A stretch of DNA of 26,482 nt from the IMG/VR virus record IMGVR_UViG_3300050821_004047, positions 1 through 26,482 of that record. One strand, written 5' to 3'. Shown piece by piece: positions 4,090 to 15,626 of this stretch (positions within the stretch are counted from its first letter, which is position 1; the number at the start of each line of letters is the position of its first letter). A program made the translations under genes and the position numbers. The stretch is from a virus. A model generated the notes under the pieces. The model searched no databases. It saw only the letters and a program-made list of their open reading frames with translations, and was not told the origin of the DNA.

Positions 4090-5127
4090 ATGGATATCGT
4101 CGCCTGGTACACCAAGGAGTATCTCGAAAAACGCTTCTATCGTGGCTCGCCGCGCCTGGTCATGGGCTGCCCGCTGTGGGGCGAGACCTACACCGAGTGG
4201 TTCATGAAATACTGCCTGCCGTCGATCCTGGCGCCGGCCAATCGCAAGGCGCTTGACGCTGCCGGTTGGCGGCTGATCCTTTACACCGATCAAGATCAGC
4301 TTATTGACTATTTACCGGCGGGCGTTCCGATTGAGATCAGAGGACTGCCTGAAGGCTATGCCGAAGCCATCGCCGAGAACGGCCACGAGAAATTCAAGAT
4401 CGTGGCCGTTGTGCACAACCTGCTGGTCCACGAGGCCGGGCGCTATCCCGAAGCCGGATTTCATATGCTGCTGCCGGATCACGTCTATTCCGAGCGCTTC
4501 TTCTCCAATCTCTTGTGGCTGGCGTGGAAGCATCCGGCGATCGTGCAGACTAGCCTGACCTGCGTGGAAGCGGATATCGGGCCAGTGCTAGAGTTTCATC
4601 GGCAGCCTGATGGTTCGCTGACTGTTCCAGCAACGAGGTTAGGTACTTTGGGTTCGCTGACGATGACTCCTCAATGGCGTTCATGGTGTCTTAGCGATAA
4701 CGAGACGTTAGAGCAGATGCCCAACACCGATTTCATCTTCTGGCAGGGTTACGACCATATCCGCATGCATTGCGCCCACCAGAACCTGATGTGGCTTTCC
4801 CCCAATCGCTGCCGCCATGCCGATACCAATGTCGGCGGCACGCTCGATAGCGAACTGCCGCGCTACACCCACAACTACTGCTTCTCGCCCCAGGTCGAGG
4901 ACGACATGGGCTTCATCGCCCTGTCGGGCGGCGGCGAGCCCGCGCCGATCGTCGATTTCGCCAAGTTCCGCAAGGATTTCTGGGCCAACCTGGATGGCAA
5001 CAAGGATTTCGAGAAATACGTCCGCACGCCCTGTTTCCTGCCCTGTGAACCGGCCGATGGCTTTCCAAGCGGCAAAGAGCTAGACTTCAAGTTTCAGCAG
5101 GTGATGCGGAAACTTGAAGAGGTCTGA
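4090..5127 (+). CDS. WGE-motif protein B, possible glycosyltransferase-like enzyme (paralogue 2)
   Basis: A 345-residue paralogue of the preceding gene, giving a tandem duplicated pair. It repeats the signature blocks VMGCPLWGETYTEWFMKYCL, KALDAAGWRLILYTD, VVHNLLVHEA, the acidic LPDHVYSERFF, LGTLG and DHIRMHCAHQNLMWLS. ATG 4090 is preferred over GTG 4084 because AGGAG (4078-4082) stands 7 nt before the ATG but only 1 nt before the GTG. The two copies differ enough that duplication is not recent, which suggests distinct acceptors or a heteromeric enzyme. A glycosyltransferase-like role is inferred from the fold pattern and neighbours only. Codons at about 4585-4700 are noticeably AT-richer than the rest. 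Its stop overlaps the portal ATG by one base. Confidence 0.6.
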   Translation: MDIVAWYTKEYLEKRFYRGSPRLVMGCPLWGETYTEWFMKYCLPSILAPANRKALDAAGWRLILYTDQDQLIDYLPAGVPIEIRGLPEGYAEAIAENGHEKFKIVAVVHNLLVHEAGRYPEAGFHMLLPDHVYSERFFSNLLWLAWKHPAIVQTSLTCVEADIGPVLEFHRQPDGSLTVPATRLGTLGSLTMTPQWRSWCLSDNETLEQMPNTDFIFWQGYDHIRMHCAHQNLMWLSPNRCRHADTNVGGTLDSELPRYTHNYCFSPQVEDDMGFIALSGGGEPAPIVDFAKFRKDFWANLDGNKDFEKYVRTPCFLPCEPADGFPSGKELDFKFQQVMRKLEEV

Positions 5128-7424
5128 TGGCACCCCCGCTCGACGCCGGCCTGGTCCCCAGTTCTGCCGAGGATGACGGCCCGCTCGAGGTCGAGCTTTT
5201 AGACCACGAGCCGGGCGAGGATAGGCCTGTCACCGACGATGACGGCAATATCCTGCGCATCGAGCATGCCGACGGCGAGATCACCGTCAGCGTGGACGGC
5301 AACCCGATCGCCCGGCTTAACGACAATCCAAACCCGCCCAAGTGGTTCGACAATCTGGTCGATCACATCGACAGAATGCAGCTCGGCATCATCTGCAACG
5401 ACCTGATCGATGGCGTGAAGCAGGACATCGAGAGCCGCACCGAATGGATGGACCAGCATGTCCAGGCCTTCAAGATGCTGGGCTGGAAGCTCGAGGTGCC
5501 GAACCAGACCAGCGACGCAGCCGACGGTGCGGTCGACGGGACGTCGACCGTCCGTCATCCCATGTTGCAGGAAGCCGTGCTGCGTTTCTGGGCCAATGCC
5601 GATGCCGAGATGCTGCCGGCTGACGGCCCGGTCAAGGTGCGCGACGACGACAATAACGGCGACATGCCACGCGACCAGCTGGCGGCCGCCTACATGACCG
5701 ATTTCAACCACTTTTTGACGGTGGTGGCCAAGGAATTTCAGCCCGACACGTCGCGCATGCTGCTGAAGCTCGGTTTCGGCGGCGCCGGTTTCAAGAAGGT
5801 CTACTACTGCCCGCAGCGCAATCGCCCGGTTTCTGAATCGATCGATGTCGAGGATCTGATCGTCAGCAACACCGCGACCAGCCTCGAGACGGCCCGGCGC
5901 ATCACCCATCGCATCATGATGGCGCCCAATACCGTGAAACGCATGCAGGTGCTGGGCATCTATGCCGACGTGCCGCTCGGTATACCGGCTGAGACTGATT
6001 ACGATCCCCTGAAGGAGGAAAAGGCGGCGCAGCAGGGCGTGCGCATTTCGACCATGCGCGCGGAGGATCGTGATCGCGAGATCTGGGAAATCTACTGCGA
6101 ACGCAACATCGCAGGCTTTGAGCACAAAAAGGGGCTTGAGGTACCTTACCGCATCACCATCGACTACTCGAGCCGGCAGGTTCTGGCGGTAGTGCGCAAC
6201 TACGACAAGGGCACCGAGCAGCTGCCGATCCCGCTGATCCCCTTCGTGATGTATACGTTCGTGCCTGGGTGGGGTTTCTGGCCGATCGGCTTGCTCCACA
6301 TTATGAGCAACCTGACTAATGCCAGCACGGCGGCGTGGCGCATCATGCTCGATAACGGCATGTTCGCAAACTTTCCCGGTTTCCTGATTGCCCAGGCTGG
6401 CATGCGGCAGGAGACATCGGTCATTCGCGTGGCACCGGGCAGTGGGGCTGCCGTCAACACCAACGGCATGCCGATCAAGGATGCCGTGATGCCGCTGCCT
6501 TATAAGACCGAGGGCCAGGCGGCCCTGATGGCGCTCAACCAGGACATCGTGGGCCAGGCGCAGCGGGTCGGCATGACGGCCGAGCTGCCGGTGTCGGAGG
6601 GTCGCGAGGATACGCCCGCCACCACCATGCTGGCGATGATCGAGCAGGCTCAGAAGCAGTTGCTGGCCGTGCACAAGGGCCTGCATCGGAGCCAGGCCGA
6701 GGAATTTAACAAGATTGCCGACGTCTTCCGGAAACACCCCGAAAGCTTCTGGCAGTGCAACAAGCGACCTGCCCATCCTTGGGATGAAGCGACCCTGATG
6801 CGTGCGCTCGACGATTGCAATCTCGTGCCGCGGTCCGACCCCAACACCGCGAGCCAGATGCATCGGCTGGTGAAAGTCGCCGCGCTAAAACTGCTGGAGA
6901 GCCAATCGCCTCCGGGCATGTTCGATCCGATCGCCACCAACACGATGGCCATCGAGGCGATCGGGTTTTCCAATCCGACACGCTTTTTTGCGCCGGTCAG
7001 CGCCATGGGTCAGCCGACGCCCGAGCAGGCGGCGCAGAACCGTGAGCTCGACATCAAACAAGCGTTGGCACAAGCCAAGACGGTCGAGACGCAGGCCAAG
7101 GCGCAGCAGATCCAGGCGACGGCAGGACTGGCTAACCAGAAGTTCCAGCTCGAGAGCGTGCTGGGCGAAGGCGACATGAAAATTAAAGCCGCGAAGACGC
7201 AGGGCGAACTGGCGCTTGACCAGCGCAAGGCTGACGACGCCAGGGAGAAAGACTTGATCGCCGAGCGGGTTCAGCTGGTCGATGTCGCCCAGAATTTAGC
7301 TGTCCACCCTGAGAGCGCCGGCCTGGTCGAGCCCCTGATCCGACCGGCATTCGAGGACGTACAGCGCCGCCAGAACGAGCACGAGGCCAAGAAGACGGCC
7401 GGCCTCGTGCCGCCGGGTATGTGA
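5127..7424 (+). CDS. Portal protein
   Basis: A 765-residue phage portal, the dodecameric ring at one capsid vertex through which DNA is packaged and ejected. Length and composition fit the large portals of podovirus-like phages. After an acidic N-terminus (about 1-45) there is a helical body. The region IRVAPGSGAAVNTNG, then MTAELPVSEGREDTPATTML and QKQLLAVHKGLHRSQAEEF (about residues 430-530), matches the conserved central part of this portal group. The C-terminal 140 residues are Gln/Ala/Lys-rich and predicted coiled coil (QALAQAKTVETQAKAQQIQA), as in the portal barrel or tail region. GAGG at 5119-5122 precedes ATG 5127, which shares one base with the previous stop. It partners the terminase encoded at the window start. 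Confidence 0.85.
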   Translation: MAPPLDAGLVPSSAEDDGPLEVELLDHEPGEDRPVTDDDGNILRIEHADGEITVSVDGNPIARLNDNPNPPKWFDNLVDHIDRMQLGIICNDLIDGVKQDIESRTEWMDQHVQAFKMLGWKLEVPNQTSDAADGAVDGTSTVRHPMLQEAVLRFWANADAEMLPADGPVKVRDDDNNGDMPRDQLAAAYMTDFNHFLTVVAKEFQPDTSRMLLKLGFGGAGFKKVYYCPQRNRPVSESIDVEDLIVSNTATSLETARRITHRIMMAPNTVKRMQVLGIYADVPLGIPAETDYDPLKEEKAAQQGVRISTMRAEDRDREIWEIYCERNIAGFEHKKGLEVPYRITIDYSSRQVLAVVRNYDKGTEQLPIPLIPFVMYTFVPGWGFWPIGLLHIMSNLTNASTAAWRIMLDNGMFANFPGFLIAQAGMRQETSVIRVAPGSGAAVNTNGMPIKDAVMPLPYKTEGQAALMALNQDIVGQAQRVGMTAELPVSEGREDTPATTMLAMIEQAQKQLLAVHKGLHRSQAEEFNKIADVFRKHPESFWQCNKRPAHPWDEATLMRALDDCNLVPRSDPNTASQMHRLVKVAALKLLESQSPPGMFDPIATNTMAIEAIGFSNPTRFFAPVSAMGQPTPEQAAQNRELDIKQALAQAKTVETQAKAQQIQATAGLANQKFQLESVLGEGDMKIKAAKTQGELALDQRKADDAREKDLIAERVQLVDVAQNLAVHPESAGLVEPLIRPAFEDVQRRQNEHEAKKTAGLVPPGM

Positions 7425-7618
7425 TGAGTGCGCTGGATTTTTATGTGGTCTACTGGACGCTGGATGGTCAACGTCATTCCGCAGAACATCTTGGTTTGTT
7501 GCAAGCTCAAAGGGATTTAGCGCACGTATCGAGATATGAAAACGTGGAAGATCCCGAGATGACGGGGCCTTTCACTTTTTCGGAATTGCTGGATATACGT
7601 AAGGCGATAGGTTTGTGA
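7424..7618 (+). CDS. Hypothetical small protein, 64 aa, AT-richer codons
   Basis: An unrecognised protein between the portal and the 1075-aa gene. It contains FYVVYWTLDGQRHSAEHLG and ends with FTFSELLDIRKAIGL. ATG 7424 shares one base with the portal stop; GTG 7421, giving a GTGA overlap, is an alternative that adds one residue. The third codon positions are much lower in GC than in the portal, suggesting later acquisition. The stop shares a base with the next ATG, so translation is coupled on both sides. No membrane segment or known motif is seen. Confidence 0.55.
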   Translation: MSALDFYVVYWTLDGQRHSAEHLGLLQAQRDLAHVSRYENVEDPEMTGPFTFSELLDIRKAIGL

Positions 7619-10600
7619 TGGACGGCGAACTGCCTCCCGACGATCAGTCGCAGCGCCAGCTCTCGCCAGTCGGTCTGTACAGCCATGCCGCCGACGTCGT
7701 TCAGAAATTCCCGCAGATGCGCGGCACGCCGCAGCAGTTCAAGGCGATGCTGACCAAGCAGGGCGTGAAGCCCGACGAATTCAAATACTCGAATTACGAT
7801 CAGGCGTTCGCCGGCAAGCCGATGGTGACGCGCGACGAGCTGGCGCAGCATTTCAATGCGAGCGTGCCACCCGTGCAGGAGACGACGCTGGGTGGTGCGC
7901 CACATCACGATTACGACGGCTTGCTGACGCATTCTGGCAGCGAAGCGCCGACTAAATTTCACTCTTATACCCTCCCCGGCGGCACGAACTACCGCGAGAC
8001 GCTGCTGCATTTGCCGCCTAAGTACGGCACATGGACCAATGGTGATCCTGTCACCGCAGAAGATATCGCGACGCCACATGGACGCGATACTGCGGCGCGG
8101 GTGGCTGGCTACAGTGACGACACATATAGCTCATCGCACTGGGACACGCCCAACGTGCTGGCACACCTGCGCATGTCTGATCGCGCGCTGCCCGGTGGCC
8201 AGAAGGCGCTGCACCTGGAGGAACTGCAGTCGGACTGGGGACAGCAAGGAAGAGAAAAAGGGTTCGAAGAAGATCGACGGCGCAAGCTCGATGAACTGAT
8301 TGCCGCTGAGAAGCGTTCAATCGTAGCGCATCAGTTGAACAAACCAGATAAAGCGCAGCGTCTTGCTGAGTACAATGAACTGGAGAAAAAGTACGGAAAG
8401 CATGTTGGCAGTAAAGGTTTGCCTTCCGCCCCCTACGTCGACAGCACGCAGAAATGGGTCGATCTCGGCCTGAAGCGGGCGCTGCACGAGGCGGCGAAGG
8501 GCGGCTACCACAAGCTGGTGGTGACGCCGGGCGAGGAGCAGGCGAAGCGGTACGATCTCAGCAAGCACATCAACGAGATCCACTATAGCGGTAGCAACTT
8601 GGTGGCGCGAGATCATCAAGGCAAAGACGTGATGAACCGCACGGGTGTTTTGCCGGAACAATTGCCCGAGATCATTGGTAAAGAGGCGGCCGAAAAACTA
8701 TTGAACCAGCCGAAGAAAGGCACCTTGCGTTCGCTACACGGTCAGGACTTGAAGATCGGCGGCGAAGGCATGAAGGCGTTCTACGACAAGATGCTGCCGG
8801 CTGCGCTGGAGAAGCTGGCGAAGAAGCACGATCCCGAGGCGAAGGTAGCCCTTAATTCCTCGATTAAAGCTCCCGCGCACTCGAAGGCTATTTACGAAGG
8901 CGAGCGCCATCCCGAATTATTTAAAGCGCATTCTCTCAATATCACACCTAAGATGCGCGAGAGCATCTTGAAAGGCCAGCCGGCCTATGCCGGGGGCGGG
9001 CGCATCGGCTTCGCCGAGGGTGGCGTGCCCGAGCAACCCGATCATCCGGCGCGCATCCCGACGCGACTGGTGACCAGCAAGAAAGGCGGTGGTCTGCCGA
9101 CCGACAATGTCGACATGGCGGCCTTCAAGTCGACGCCCGAACTCTATCAGAAGAACGTCGACCTGGTGCGCGACTACCCCAATACGCCCAGGCGCATTGC
9201 CAAACAGCCGCACGACAAGCTTGCCGAGCAATTCATCGAACACGCCAAGAACAACCTTTTGGATCTGCACGACCGCGTGCCCGATGCCGTGAAGGCGCGC
9301 AGCAAGCTCTGGTACAAGGGCGCCAACAGGATCGTGAAAGACCTCGGCCAGCAGTACAAGCTGCCCGATCACTCGGTCGCCGGCGCCATCGCAGCGCTCA
9401 GTCCGCAGAAGGACTGGTTCCAGAATGTCAGTCTCGCCAAGCGGGTCATCGAGGCGATGCATGGCGGCGGCCGGAATTTCTATGCCGGTTTCACCACGAC
9501 ACCGGCGATGGAGGCTACGTTCAAGGGTCGTAGTTCGCTCAACAAGCCCAAGTACATGCCGCTGCTGGACGCGATCAAGGGCAAGTCATTGCATGATCTC
9601 GATCAGACGGAAGGCAGTCCGCACGAGAAGGCCGCGCGCAAGGCGCTCTGGATAAGGCTGCATGACGAGACCTACAACAGCCCGAGTTATCCCCTGGTGA
9701 CGCCGGAAGGCAATTTTGGCGAACCGGTGAAGACCAAGGGCGGTGCCGAGCGCAAGGCCGGTTGGGGTTCCTTGACGGAAATAAGCAAGGCGATCCGCGC
9801 GCTCGAGGCGGCAAAAGATCCGAGCCAGATCTCGGCGCTGATGGGCGAGAAGCACAAGGTCCGCAATTTTTATAACAACATGCTGGACCCTGACGCCAGG
9901 CATGGCGACGTCACGATCGACACTCATGCTGTGGCTGCCGCGCTGATGCGGGCGCTGGCCGGGAAATCGACTGAGGTGGCGCACAATTTCGCCAATTCGA
10001 CCGCGCCCGGTGTATCGGCGGCTGGCGGCAGCGCCATCAGCGGTATCCAGGGTACCTATCCACTCTATGCCGAAGCTTATCGTCGTGCTGCCAAGGAGCG
10101 CGGTATTCTTCCTCGTGAAATGCAGTCGATCACCTGGGAAGGGATCCGCAGCATGTTCAACGACACCTTCAAGTCGAACAAAAACAACGTGAAGGCGATA
10201 GATGATATTTGGGAGAAGCATCGCAGCGGGAAACTTACGCAGAAACAGGCACGGGAGCAGGTCTATGCCTTCGCCGGAGGACTCAAAAATCCAGACTGGT
10301 TTTCTGGACATGATGAAGCGCCACAACATTCCCCTGACCAGGGAAAACTACCTCGACCTGGTGTATCTGGGTCAAGCACCGCAACACCTCTCGGCCGAGG
10401 AAGAGGACGAGCTGCCGGAGCAGTTCCGGCTGCACCACCAGCCGAAGTAGCGCCGGAACCGGTCCTGGCGAAAGCCGACGGAGGCGTTGTCGACGCCGCT
10501 CCGCACATGCATGCCGGCGCCGGGAGTGGCGCCGGACGGCTCGAGAAGATGCATATCCAGAGCGGTGATATGAGCCCGGACCAGAAGCTTCTGCCGCTGA

Positions 10601-10845
10601 TCTCCACGCCATTCATCGACAAAGCGATCGAGCGGGCTCAGGAGCCGCCGCGCGAGGAGTACAAGAACGGTGGCGTGGTAGCGAAACCTGAGAATAACGT
10701 CGAGGCGCTCGAGCGTCTTACTGGCATGGTTGCGCATCAGGGCGAAACGATTGATAAATTGACCAGAATCCTGTCGTCGCCGCAGGTCTTTGAGCGCGAT
10801 GACAAAAACCGTGTGAAGCGCGTCTATCGGGAAATGCCGCGATGA
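7618..10845 (+). CDS. 1075-aa multidomain (polyvalent-type) phage protein
   Basis: A very long protein with at least three parts. Residues about 125-460 hold a block I associate with phage and conjugative-element polyvalent proteins: SSHWDTPNVLAHLRMSDR, LHLEELQSDWGQQGREKGF and GMKAFYDKMLPAALEKL, ending near GGGRIGFAEGG. Residues about 490-890 form a second helical domain with AALSPQKDWFQN (about 592), DVTIDTHAVAAALM (764-777) and GTYPLYAEAYRRAA...QSITWE; the IDTH motif recalls the VDTH segment of HhH-GPD DNA glycosylases, but that is inference. The last 130 residues carry GAGSGAGRLEKMHIQ and YKNGGVV. Between the second and third parts, codons 10265-10450 look out of frame, and another frame there encodes a recognisable small protein. 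Such proteins are often injected with phage DNA. Whether all parts are made as one chain is uncertain. Confidence 0.7.
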   Translation: MDGELPPDDQSQRQLSPVGLYSHAADVVQKFPQMRGTPQQFKAMLTKQGVKPDEFKYSNYDQAFAGKPMVTRDELAQHFNASVPPVQETTLGGAPHHDYDGLLTHSGSEAPTKFHSYTLPGGTNYRETLLHLPPKYGTWTNGDPVTAEDIATPHGRDTAARVAGYSDDTYSSSHWDTPNVLAHLRMSDRALPGGQKALHLEELQSDWGQQGREKGFEEDRRRKLDELIAAEKRSIVAHQLNKPDKAQRLAEYNELEKKYGKHVGSKGLPSAPYVDSTQKWVDLGLKRALHEAAKGGYHKLVVTPGEEQAKRYDLSKHINEIHYSGSNLVARDHQGKDVMNRTGVLPEQLPEIIGKEAAEKLLNQPKKGTLRSLHGQDLKIGGEGMKAFYDKMLPAALEKLAKKHDPEAKVALNSSIKAPAHSKAIYEGERHPELFKAHSLNITPKMRESILKGQPAYAGGGRIGFAEGGVPEQPDHPARIPTRLVTSKKGGGLPTDNVDMAAFKSTPELYQKNVDLVRDYPNTPRRIAKQPHDKLAEQFIEHAKNNLLDLHDRVPDAVKARSKLWYKGANRIVKDLGQQYKLPDHSVAGAIAALSPQKDWFQNVSLAKRVIEAMHGGGRNFYAGFTTTPAMEATFKGRSSLNKPKYMPLLDAIKGKSLHDLDQTEGSPHEKAARKALWIRLHDETYNSPSYPLVTPEGNFGEPVKTKGGAERKAGWGSLTEISKAIRALEAAKDPSQISALMGEKHKVRNFYNNMLDPDARHGDVTIDTHAVAAALMRALAGKSTEVAHNFANSTAPGVSAAGGSAISGIQGTYPLYAEAYRRAAKERGILPREMQSITWEGIRSMFNDTFKSNKNNVKAIDDIWEKHRSGKLTQKQAREQVYAFAGGLKNPDWFSGHDEAPQHSPDQGKLPRPGVSGSSTATPLGRGRGRAAGAVPAAPPAEVAPEPVLAKADGGVVDAAPHMHAGAGSGAGRLEKMHIQSGDMSPDQKLLPLISTPFIDKAIERAQEPPREEYKNGGVVAKPENNVEALERLTGMVAHQGETIDKLTRILSSPQVFERDDKNRVKRVYREMPR
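10265..10450 (+). CDS. Overprinted small phage protein (PLTRENYL type), 61 aa
   Basis: Nested in the +1 frame relative to the 1075-aa gene. ATG 10265 has GGAG (10254-10257) at 7-nt spacing; internal ATGs at 10310 and 10313 are alternatives. The product contains MKRHNIPLTRENYLDLVYLG followed by an acidic SAEEEDELPEQF, which matches a small-protein signature I recognise from many tailed phages, usually near head genes. Over these bases this frame has high third-position GC, while the surrounding long frame has low third-position GC and translates to Gly/Pro/Ala/Arg-rich low complexity, so this frame looks like the selected one. Its function is unknown. Its presence suggests the long frame is a fusion across what are separate genes in relatives, or true overprinting. 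Confidence 0.6.
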   Translation: MPSPEDSKIQTGFLDMMKRHNIPLTRENYLDLVYLGQAPQHLSAEEEDELPEQFRLHHQPK

Positions 10846-13910: not shown

Positions 13911-15626
13911 ATGACCTTTCGCGGCGTATACGGATCAAGACCGCCGCTACCTCGTGCGGACGTCACGCACGCACGTCAGTATGTCTGGGCGGGGCTTGCA
14001 CTCATCACTGCGCATGCCTTGCCTCCGGGCAAAGCGCAGTTCGAGCCTACGCCGGCGCGGCTCGATCCGGTTCATGCGCGTAACTGGACTCCGACCAACG
14101 ATCTTTCGCACAGATATGAATTGCTGCTTCCACGCGGCAAGACCGCCGGCATGGAACTGCCCAGAACGCTCACGCTGGACAGCCCCATCGCACGAGCCTG
14201 GCAGCGGGTAAACGACCTTCCGCGGCAGCTGCAGCAGACGCTGCCGTTCGCTCAAAAGGACTGGGCGCTTCCTTCCAGGCGACCACTTTCGGTTCTCGAG
14301 ACGTCGCCGCTTAACACCGCAGTTCTTCATACTGTTGTTGTCGTCACCGCGCCCTTCGCGATGTTCGATTGGCCGCTGACCAGGAAGTTGGGGCCGACGC
14401 CCGAGACCCCACTGATTCAAGCGATCAGGGCCGGTCCGACACCGTTTGCTTTCTACGACTGGACACTTGCGAAGCGACCACTGCCGCCGGCGCCTGAAAC
14501 ACCGCCGCTCAATGCCGCGGTCCAGATCGGGCCGACGCCGTTTGCTTTTTATGATTGGCCGTCGCCTCGACTAGCGGGACCTCTCACGAAAGAAACGCCG
14601 CCGCTCAATGCCGCGGTTCAGATCGGGCCGACGCCTTTTGCCGTTTACGACTGGCCTCTTGCCAAGAAACCGTTAGCGCCCGCGCCTGAGACGCCGCCAC
14701 TCAATATTGCTGCGATCCATACGATCGTTGCCGTCACGGCGCCTTTCGCTCAGTTCGACTGGCCGTTGCCTGCGAGGATCCCGCAGAAACCGCTACCCAT
14801 CAGCCTCGCGCGATTGGTCGTTCACGGTACCGCCGCGGTCGCCCAACCTTTTGCGTTGTTCGACTGGCCCCTGGCTGCACGACCGCTGCCGCGCGCACCT
14901 GAGACGCCGCCGCTCAGCCCGGTTCTTCAGATCGGTCCAACGCCTTTCGCGTTCTTCGACTGGACGCTGGCCAAAACGACGCCGCTGTTGGCGAAGGAAA
15001 CGCCACCCCTCAATGCTGCGGTCCAGATCGGCCCGACGCCTTTCCATTCAACCGAATGGCCGCTGGCCAGAAGTCCGCTGCCGTCGGCAAAAGAAACGCC
15101 GCCGCTCAATCAGGTGCTGCAGATCGAGCCGACGCCGTTCGCATTACTTGACTGGCCTCTGTCCAAGCGAACACCGCCACCAGCACCCGAGACACCGCCG
15201 CTTAATATCGCTGCGATCAATACGGTCGTCATCTCTGGGCCTCCTTTCTTCCAACTCGATTGGCCGCTGGCCAAGTTGCCTTTGCCGTCGGCACTTGAAA
15301 CGCCGCCTCTCAATCAGGCTCTTCAGATTGGTCCTACGCCTTTTGCGTTCTTCGATTGGACGCTGGCCAGGTTGACGCCGCTCGTTGTCGTCGACACGCC
15401 GCCGGCGACATCGGCGCCCATACCGCCCGCCACAGGTGGCCCCAATTACCTGCGCCGCCTGATTCAGACCGAAGAGGCGCGGCGGCAAAGGCTTGCCGAG
15501 CAGGACCGCGGCGTATTGCAGACGATGTTCCGCGAGGGTCGCGCTGAAGGCGGCCGGGTCGAGGGCGAAGAGGATCGTTTGATCGAGGAGGACGATGAGG
15601 ATATCCTGCGTTTCCTCGATCCTTAG
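13911..15626 (+). CDS. DWPL tandem-repeat protein
   Basis: A 571-residue proline-rich protein dominated by about 12 tandem repeats (residues 110-510). The idealised unit is PTPFAFYDWPLAKRPLPPAP followed by ETPPLNAAVQIG, about 32 residues, with longer variants of 35-36 that replace QIG by HTVVVVTA-like hydrophobic segments. The core F-x-x-x-D-W-[PT]-L is nearly invariant; unit 9 changes DW to EW. The N-terminus (about 1-109) is Arg/Pro-rich without clear repeats. The C-terminus changes to a charged helix (RRLIQTEEARRQRLAEQD) and a very acidic tail. It lacks a signal peptide. I recall related DWPNP/DWPL proteins in phage-like sequences of Rhizobiales, without assigned function. A fibrous or scaffold-like virion role is a guess from repeat architecture and location. 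Confidence 0.75.
   Translation: MTFRGVYGSRPPLPRADVTHARQYVWAGLALITAHALPPGKAQFEPTPARLDPVHARNWTPTNDLSHRYELLLPRGKTAGMELPRTLTLDSPIARAWQRVNDLPRQLQQTLPFAQKDWALPSRRPLSVLETSPLNTAVLHTVVVVTAPFAMFDWPLTRKLGPTPETPLIQAIRAGPTPFAFYDWTLAKRPLPPAPETPPLNAAVQIGPTPFAFYDWPSPRLAGPLTKETPPLNAAVQIGPTPFAVYDWPLAKKPLAPAPETPPLNIAAIHTIVAVTAPFAQFDWPLPARIPQKPLPISLARLVVHGTAAVAQPFALFDWPLAARPLPRAPETPPLSPVLQIGPTPFAFFDWTLAKTTPLLAKETPPLNAAVQIGPTPFHSTEWPLARSPLPSAKETPPLNQVLQIEPTPFALLDWPLSKRTPPPAPETPPLNIAAINTVVISGPPFFQLDWPLAKLPLPSALETPPLNQALQIGPTPFAFFDWTLARLTPLVVVDTPPATSAPIPPATGGPNYLRRLIQTEEARRQRLAEQDRGVLQTMFREGRAEGGRVEGEEDRLIEEDDEDILRFLDP
14238..15440 (+). repeat. About 12 tandem coding repeats, 32-36 codons each
   Basis: Each unit contains a codon run for F-[AF]-x-[FYLM]-DW-[PT]-L and, in most units, ETPPLN. 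Units are diverged at the nucleotide level, so recent slippage is not obvious, although some adjacent pairs (for example the two ETPPLNAAVQIGPTPFA units at about 14500 and 14600) remain very similar. Long units, with an extra hydrophobic segment, appear at positions 1, 5, 6, 10 and 12 in the series. Confidence 0.8.

Follow-up and report, generated by a model that had tools for sequence, protein, structure and literature searches.

A small gene in a second frame beside DUF7178, probably carried as a cassette within a phage multidomain protein

The window analysed in this study is a 26,482-base metagenomic virus record (IMGVR_UViG_3300050821_004047). One mRNA stretch within it probably specifies two products, a multidomain protein with a cassette-borne DUF7178 domain and a small protein whose gene is nested in the same bases. 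In the mechanism proposed here, the long frame would be translated straight through to give an N-terminal part, DUF7178, a flexible linker and a C-terminal part. Ribosomes would also initiate internally at the ATG at position 10265, behind its own Shine-Dalgarno (SD) site, to produce a separate acidic, helical protein of 61 amino acids. DUF7178 and the small gene would form a two-gene unit that moves as a cassette. A unit placed terminally in a protein would have a DUF7178 frame that stops short of the small-gene end. In a unit inserted within a larger protein, this frame would be open and the small gene wholly nested, and shifted translation of the small gene would then act as a disordered linker. 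Sequence comparisons establish the conservation of the small frame, its start sites, its fixed frame, the near-obligate DUF7178 neighbourhood and the in-frame insertion.

Results

The long frame and the nested small gene. The long open frame lies downstream of a portal-like gene (5127-7424, from profile matches), and its parts are listed in Table 1. A preliminary description of this DNA had reported the frame with a length of 1075 amino acids; the frame is present and is one residue longer. DUF7178 is the only named domain that Pfam finds in it (PF23802, E 2.7e-26, 93.1 bits against a curated cut-off of 27), and the N and C parts are unnamed. The domain also matches phrog_3842. The N part has a 32% match to a Caudoviricetes hypothetical protein and a weak match to phrog_7348 (endolysin).

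Table 1. Positions of the long frame, its parts and the nested small gene in the window.
Feature	Positions	Strand	Basis or remark
Long open reading frame, 1076 aa, GTG start	7615..10845	+	N part + DUF7178 + low-complexity linker + C part
N part of long protein	7615..9000	+	In-frame counterpart in sister phage L004
Cassette (DUF7178 + small gene), approximate limits	9000..10475	+	Limits from L004 DNA identity
DUF7178 domain, predicted HhH-GPD-like DNA glycosylase	9061..10299	+	Pfam PF23802, phrog_3842, fold prediction
Proposed catalytic lysine, codon of invariant Lys273 (model numbering)	9856..9858	+	65/65 sequences
Proposed catalytic aspartate, within codons of invariant Asp-Thr-His (294-296, model numbering)	9919..9927	+	65/65 sequences
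GGGAG Shine-Dalgarno-like site, small gene	10253..10257	+	
Nested small gene, +1 frame, 61 aa, stop TAG 10448-10450	10265..10450	+	
Long-frame linker over small gene	10300..10450	+	Low complexity, open, sequence unconserved
C part of long protein	10451..10845	+	L004 match; codon score +0.31

The small gene occupies 61 codons in the +1 frame relative to the long frame. The GGGAG site stands 7 nt from the ATG with an SD duplex of -6.6 kcal/mol, which confirms the GGAG-led ATG and 61-aa product described earlier. An earlier ATG in the small frame, at 10202, would allow an 82-aa variant. GC content was compared by codon position in both frames. In the DUF7178 part the long frame has values of 0.58/0.44/0.76 at positions 1/2/3, and beyond 10451 they are 0.69/0.42/0.72. 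Over 10265-10447 it has 0.77/0.67/0.30, and the high third-position value shifts to the small frame (0.67/0.30/0.77). The codon-usage score over the same bases is +0.21 for the small frame versus -0.54 for the long frame, which is back to +0.31 beyond 10450. The low third-position GC and low complexity noted earlier for a long frame that stays open across the small gene are thus borne out, as is its good coding character up to 10845.

Relatives of the small protein. The small protein begins NIPLTRENYLDL..., is acidic and has three predicted helices; the mean net charge of the family is moderately negative (-4.9). It had no real match in Pfam or PHROGs, none among annotated phages using tblastn with family members as queries, and its model had no fold match in the PDB. 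A search with the long protein generated 80 viral loci with DUF7178. The small protein was recognised after DUF7178 by tblastn or HMM in most of them, and in nearly all loci with enough sequence it was on the same strand. The small protein alone, as an alignment, was used for a second, partly overlapping search that also generated 80 loci. A 24-row small-protein alignment was too diverse for scanning collections, and a 6-row subset was used instead. DUF7178 adjoins the small gene in 79/80 of these loci, and the remaining locus is cut by a contig end. In 75/79 DUF7178 is directly upstream on the same strand. Four loci (L096, L097, L099 and L112) have the two genes convergent on opposite strands; here the small gene (L096:2475-2679 and L097:248-454, likewise in L099 and L112) starts at its own ATG, behind GGAGGAG in L096. 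Two short, doubtful matches from a genome contig scan, L159 and L160, were set aside when the HMM gave no confirmation.

Removal of near copies at 85% identity left 69 lineages, each with the small protein after DUF7178, in agreement with the earlier suggestion of a conserved phage gene overprinted in a longer open frame. The loci are metagenomic and unevenly related, so the lineage counts given here are not fully independent. DUF7178 occurs without the small gene in L063, L067 and L069, and in the complete phages zth2-2 and CRP-738. These few cases indicate that the enzyme does not always depend on the small gene, which is therefore not indispensable.

A decayed C-terminal DUF7178 remnant was seen on Bradyrhizobium barranii plasmid pCC829_1 (L164:2801-3433). 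An annotated hypothetical gene of 86 aa, WP_231145582.1, overlaps it; the product of this gene weakly matches the small-protein profile, and a TIR-domain gene lies just upstream.

Selection and start sites. Substitutions were counted in disjoint pairs of related loci in which the long frame is open through the small gene. In the nested region they fall 16:7:37 at small-frame codon positions 1:2:3. Changes were nonsynonymous in 15/49 changed small codons versus 40/48 changed long codons. The wobble bases of the long frame coincide with position 2 of the small frame; it is therefore not the long frame that is being conserved. Across relatives the nested region follows the small frame, the opposite of a long frame conserved over an interrupted +1 frame, which the preliminary description had named as evidence against the overprinted gene. 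As judged from these substitution patterns, the small frame is under purifying selection and is a real gene. A start with an SD duplex of -5 kcal/mol or stronger, at most 35 codons upstream of the conserved core, was found in 66/69 lineages. The combination of ATG and SD occurs in the small frame in 59/69 lineages, versus 11 and 2 in the two other frames.

Open-through and terminated long frames. The DUF7178 frame is open across the whole small gene in 33/69 lineages, including the window, and ends short of the small-gene stop in 36/69, a split that is sensitive to contig quality and to the open-frame cut point. Open-through frames usually extend 100-2200 codons further. At least 80 codons follow the small stop in 26/33 long frames, and more than 1000 in several; the open frame of L005 reaches the contig end, and in six lineages the frame closes no more than 65 codons beyond the small stop. 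Relative to DUF7178, the small gene is in the +1 frame in 33/33 open-through and 28/36 terminated lineages, in the +2 frame in the other eight, and never in frame 0. The open or terminated state changed at least nine times on the DUF7178 tree, with at least four changes forced by starred branches. When the small protein was recoded synonymously in simulation, the long frame was open with a mean probability of 0.11 per lineage. Terminated lineages had a similar mean open probability, so the small protein does not force openness.

Among the open-through long proteins checked, ART-PolyVal, LPD3, LPD38, ddrB-ParB and InPase domains were found, with polyvalent-associated domains in relatives L037, L064, L071, L072 and L077. 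Several open-through relatives therefore carry domains of the polyvalent proteins of phages and conjugative elements (PMC5512222), unlike the long protein of the window, in which DUF7178 is the only named domain of this kind; two or more conflict-related domains in a single phage polypeptide are the mark of this class. In a text search, PMC5512222 mentioned neither overlap nor frameshift, nor a small protein or glycosylase. In L103:2335-6633 one 1433-aa frame appears to run from DUF7178 and the small-gene region into a prohead serine protease and a phage capsid domain, an unusual fusion.

A sister phage without the cassette. L004 has ~85% DNA identity to the window in the flanking genes. Its N and C parts form a single 902-aa frame that has neither DUF7178 nor the small gene. 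The two DNAs cease to match near 8999 of the window and match again from 10476, with ~250 bp between these points in L004. Residues 953-1076 of the long protein share 61% identity, in the same frame, with the C-terminal end of its L004 counterpart. Neither DUF7178 nor the small gene was found in the whole 33-kb L004 record, which may be incomplete. Together with the relatives, the in-frame joining of the flanks in L004 points to an in-frame cassette inserted into a phage protein and not to a stop loss or indel peculiar to this contig. Of the origins that had been put forward for the long protein, a natural fusion across an overlapping gene is the one upheld, by L004 and by the 33/69 open-through lineages. 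Elsewhere in the alignment, window positions 14200-15400 match L004 10435-11500 many times over at 65-85% identity, indicating internal repeats, probably within a fibre-like gene (13911-15626). A 554-aa antisense open frame opposite the portal gene (5199-6863, minus strand) has a 566-aa counterpart in L004 and is probably a by-product of GC-rich codon usage.

DUF7178 as a predicted enzyme. PF23802 is matched by 65/65 aligned relatives, and no other Pfam family matched DUF7178 consistently. The family has neither a function nor a companion gene in Pfam or PHROGs, in contrast to the companion found here, and our literature search found no paper that mentions it. A DUF7178 profile had no match among PDB sequences. 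The predicted model has a mean pLDDT of 95. Foldseek alone gave no significant match to the PDB; it listed AGOG with a probability of 0.44 at E 0.3, and its other PDB rows (transporters and synthases) were disregarded because of their very low probability. VIA-align placed 8-oxoguanine DNA glycosylases in all of its first five rows (Z 7.6 to 4.7), followed by a row at 3.2; the best value is middling, being under the VIA caution level of 8. One structural match of DUF7178 is named ART-PolyVal-like.

Lys273, Asp294, Thr295 and His296 are invariant in 65/65 DUF7178 sequences, in the motifs G-x-x-H-K and then D-T-H. Compared by sequence motif, this arrangement resembles the catalytic Lys/Asp of AGOG and OGG1, members of the HhH-GPD superfamily that provide the best predicted fold match. 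In Pae-AGOG the catalytic pair is K140/D172 (PMC9638937, PMC3397491). The predicted structure and the invariant residues suggest that DUF7178 is a helix-hairpin-helix (HhH-GPD) DNA glycosylase/lyase, although, unlike AGOG and OGG1, it is embedded in a phage multidomain protein. The HhH-GPD profile PF00730 had no match in the window, while 14/14 control genomes matched it. DUF7178 is therefore not filed as a member of PF00730, only as working like one. Gene 22 of Microbacterium phage Cece (L165:1914-2537) is a short, partly similar DUF7178-like protein annotated as 'glycosylase' by its submitters. A link between DUF7178 and thymine-hypermodification enzymes of the HhH fold would be speculative; a literature search on phage HhH pyrophosphorylases returned no match.

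Discussion

Several other explanations of the long frame and the small gene were weighed. Programmed +1 frameshifting, in which slipping ribosomes would give DUF7178 an alternative C-terminus encoded by the small frame, agrees with a relative frame of +1 in 61/69 lineages, as a fixed slip requires. We judge it very improbable nonetheless. An SD-led start lies just upstream in 66/69 lineages, far above the other frames, and the opposite-strand copies of L096/L112 and L097/L099 have starts of their own, both of which argue against frameshifting, as does the +2 frame of eight lineages. Frameshifting had been raised in the preliminary description, as had re-initiation. The latter would make the C part after the small-gene stop, with the long frame open by chance. 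That the linker over the small gene is unconserved in the long frame fits such split translation, as do SD-led starts after the small stop in 8/33 lineages, but an SD-led ATG is found there in only 4/33. The window has no strong site, its candidates being an ATG at 10507 without an SD and a modest one 42 bases on. The single frame of L004, which joins both parts without the small gene, and the low joint probability that all 33 frames would be open, though these lineages are related, make this explanation improbable as well.

The sharp fall in long-frame coding character over 10265-10447 could be taken to favour an assembly error, an indel or a recent stop loss in the window contig. The open-through state recurs, with an unchanged relative frame, in independent contigs from many samples, and the two flanks stand in frame to each other as they do in L004. 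Comparison with relatives thus refutes this origin, to which we assign almost no probability. It is unlikely, though to a lesser degree than any of the foregoing, that the small gene is real but independent of DUF7178 and linked to it only because the overlap makes them inseparable. Overlap alone would conserve linkage, and a few phages keep DUF7178 alone. Against this, the two genes remain linked in the +2 lineages, where they overlap little or not at all, and also where they are on opposite strands, and a neighbourhood kept under these circumstances points to shared function. We therefore prefer a cassette of two genes with two products.

The chance that the small protein is a dedicated partner of the DUF7178 enzyme is about even, judged purely by their association. 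As a partner it would most likely control or assist the enzyme, as a regulator or accessory subunit; that it inhibits DUF7178 is a guess, weaker than either of these. Its negative charge would suit a DNA-mimicking regulator. Ugi, the phage inhibitor of uracil-DNA glycosylase, is small and acidic. The pairing of a small acidic phage protein with a predicted DNA glycosylase is alike in concept, by analogy, but the charge of the small proteins here is only moderately negative. It is possible, if doubtful, that this widespread phage family, missing from the libraries, serves specifically to regulate a phage enzyme of DNA base excision and is encoded within the gene of that enzyme, in a second frame. 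If so, large phage proteins can incorporate the enzyme and its regulator is never lost.

The lambda gene Rz1 is a small functional gene in another frame, fully nested within Rz. Likewise, the longer gene that encloses the small gene here belongs to the same operon and is read in a different frame. The two systems differ in that the outer frame here is an interdomain linker, and in that the state switches between nested and merely overlapping. A gene pair that enters and leaves multidomain phage proteins as a cassette, its second gene kept alive in a linker, would offer a tractable natural experiment on overlapping genes. DUF7178 gains an enzymatic hypothesis, DNA base removal, together with a probable partner. 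Genes overlapping longer ones are often dropped by gene callers and family libraries, and this family, spread over dozens of phage lineages, is missing from Pfam and PHROGs. In Rhodobacteraceae phage LS06-2018-MD07 the small frame is unannotated and lies inside one annotated coding sequence of ~9.3 kb.
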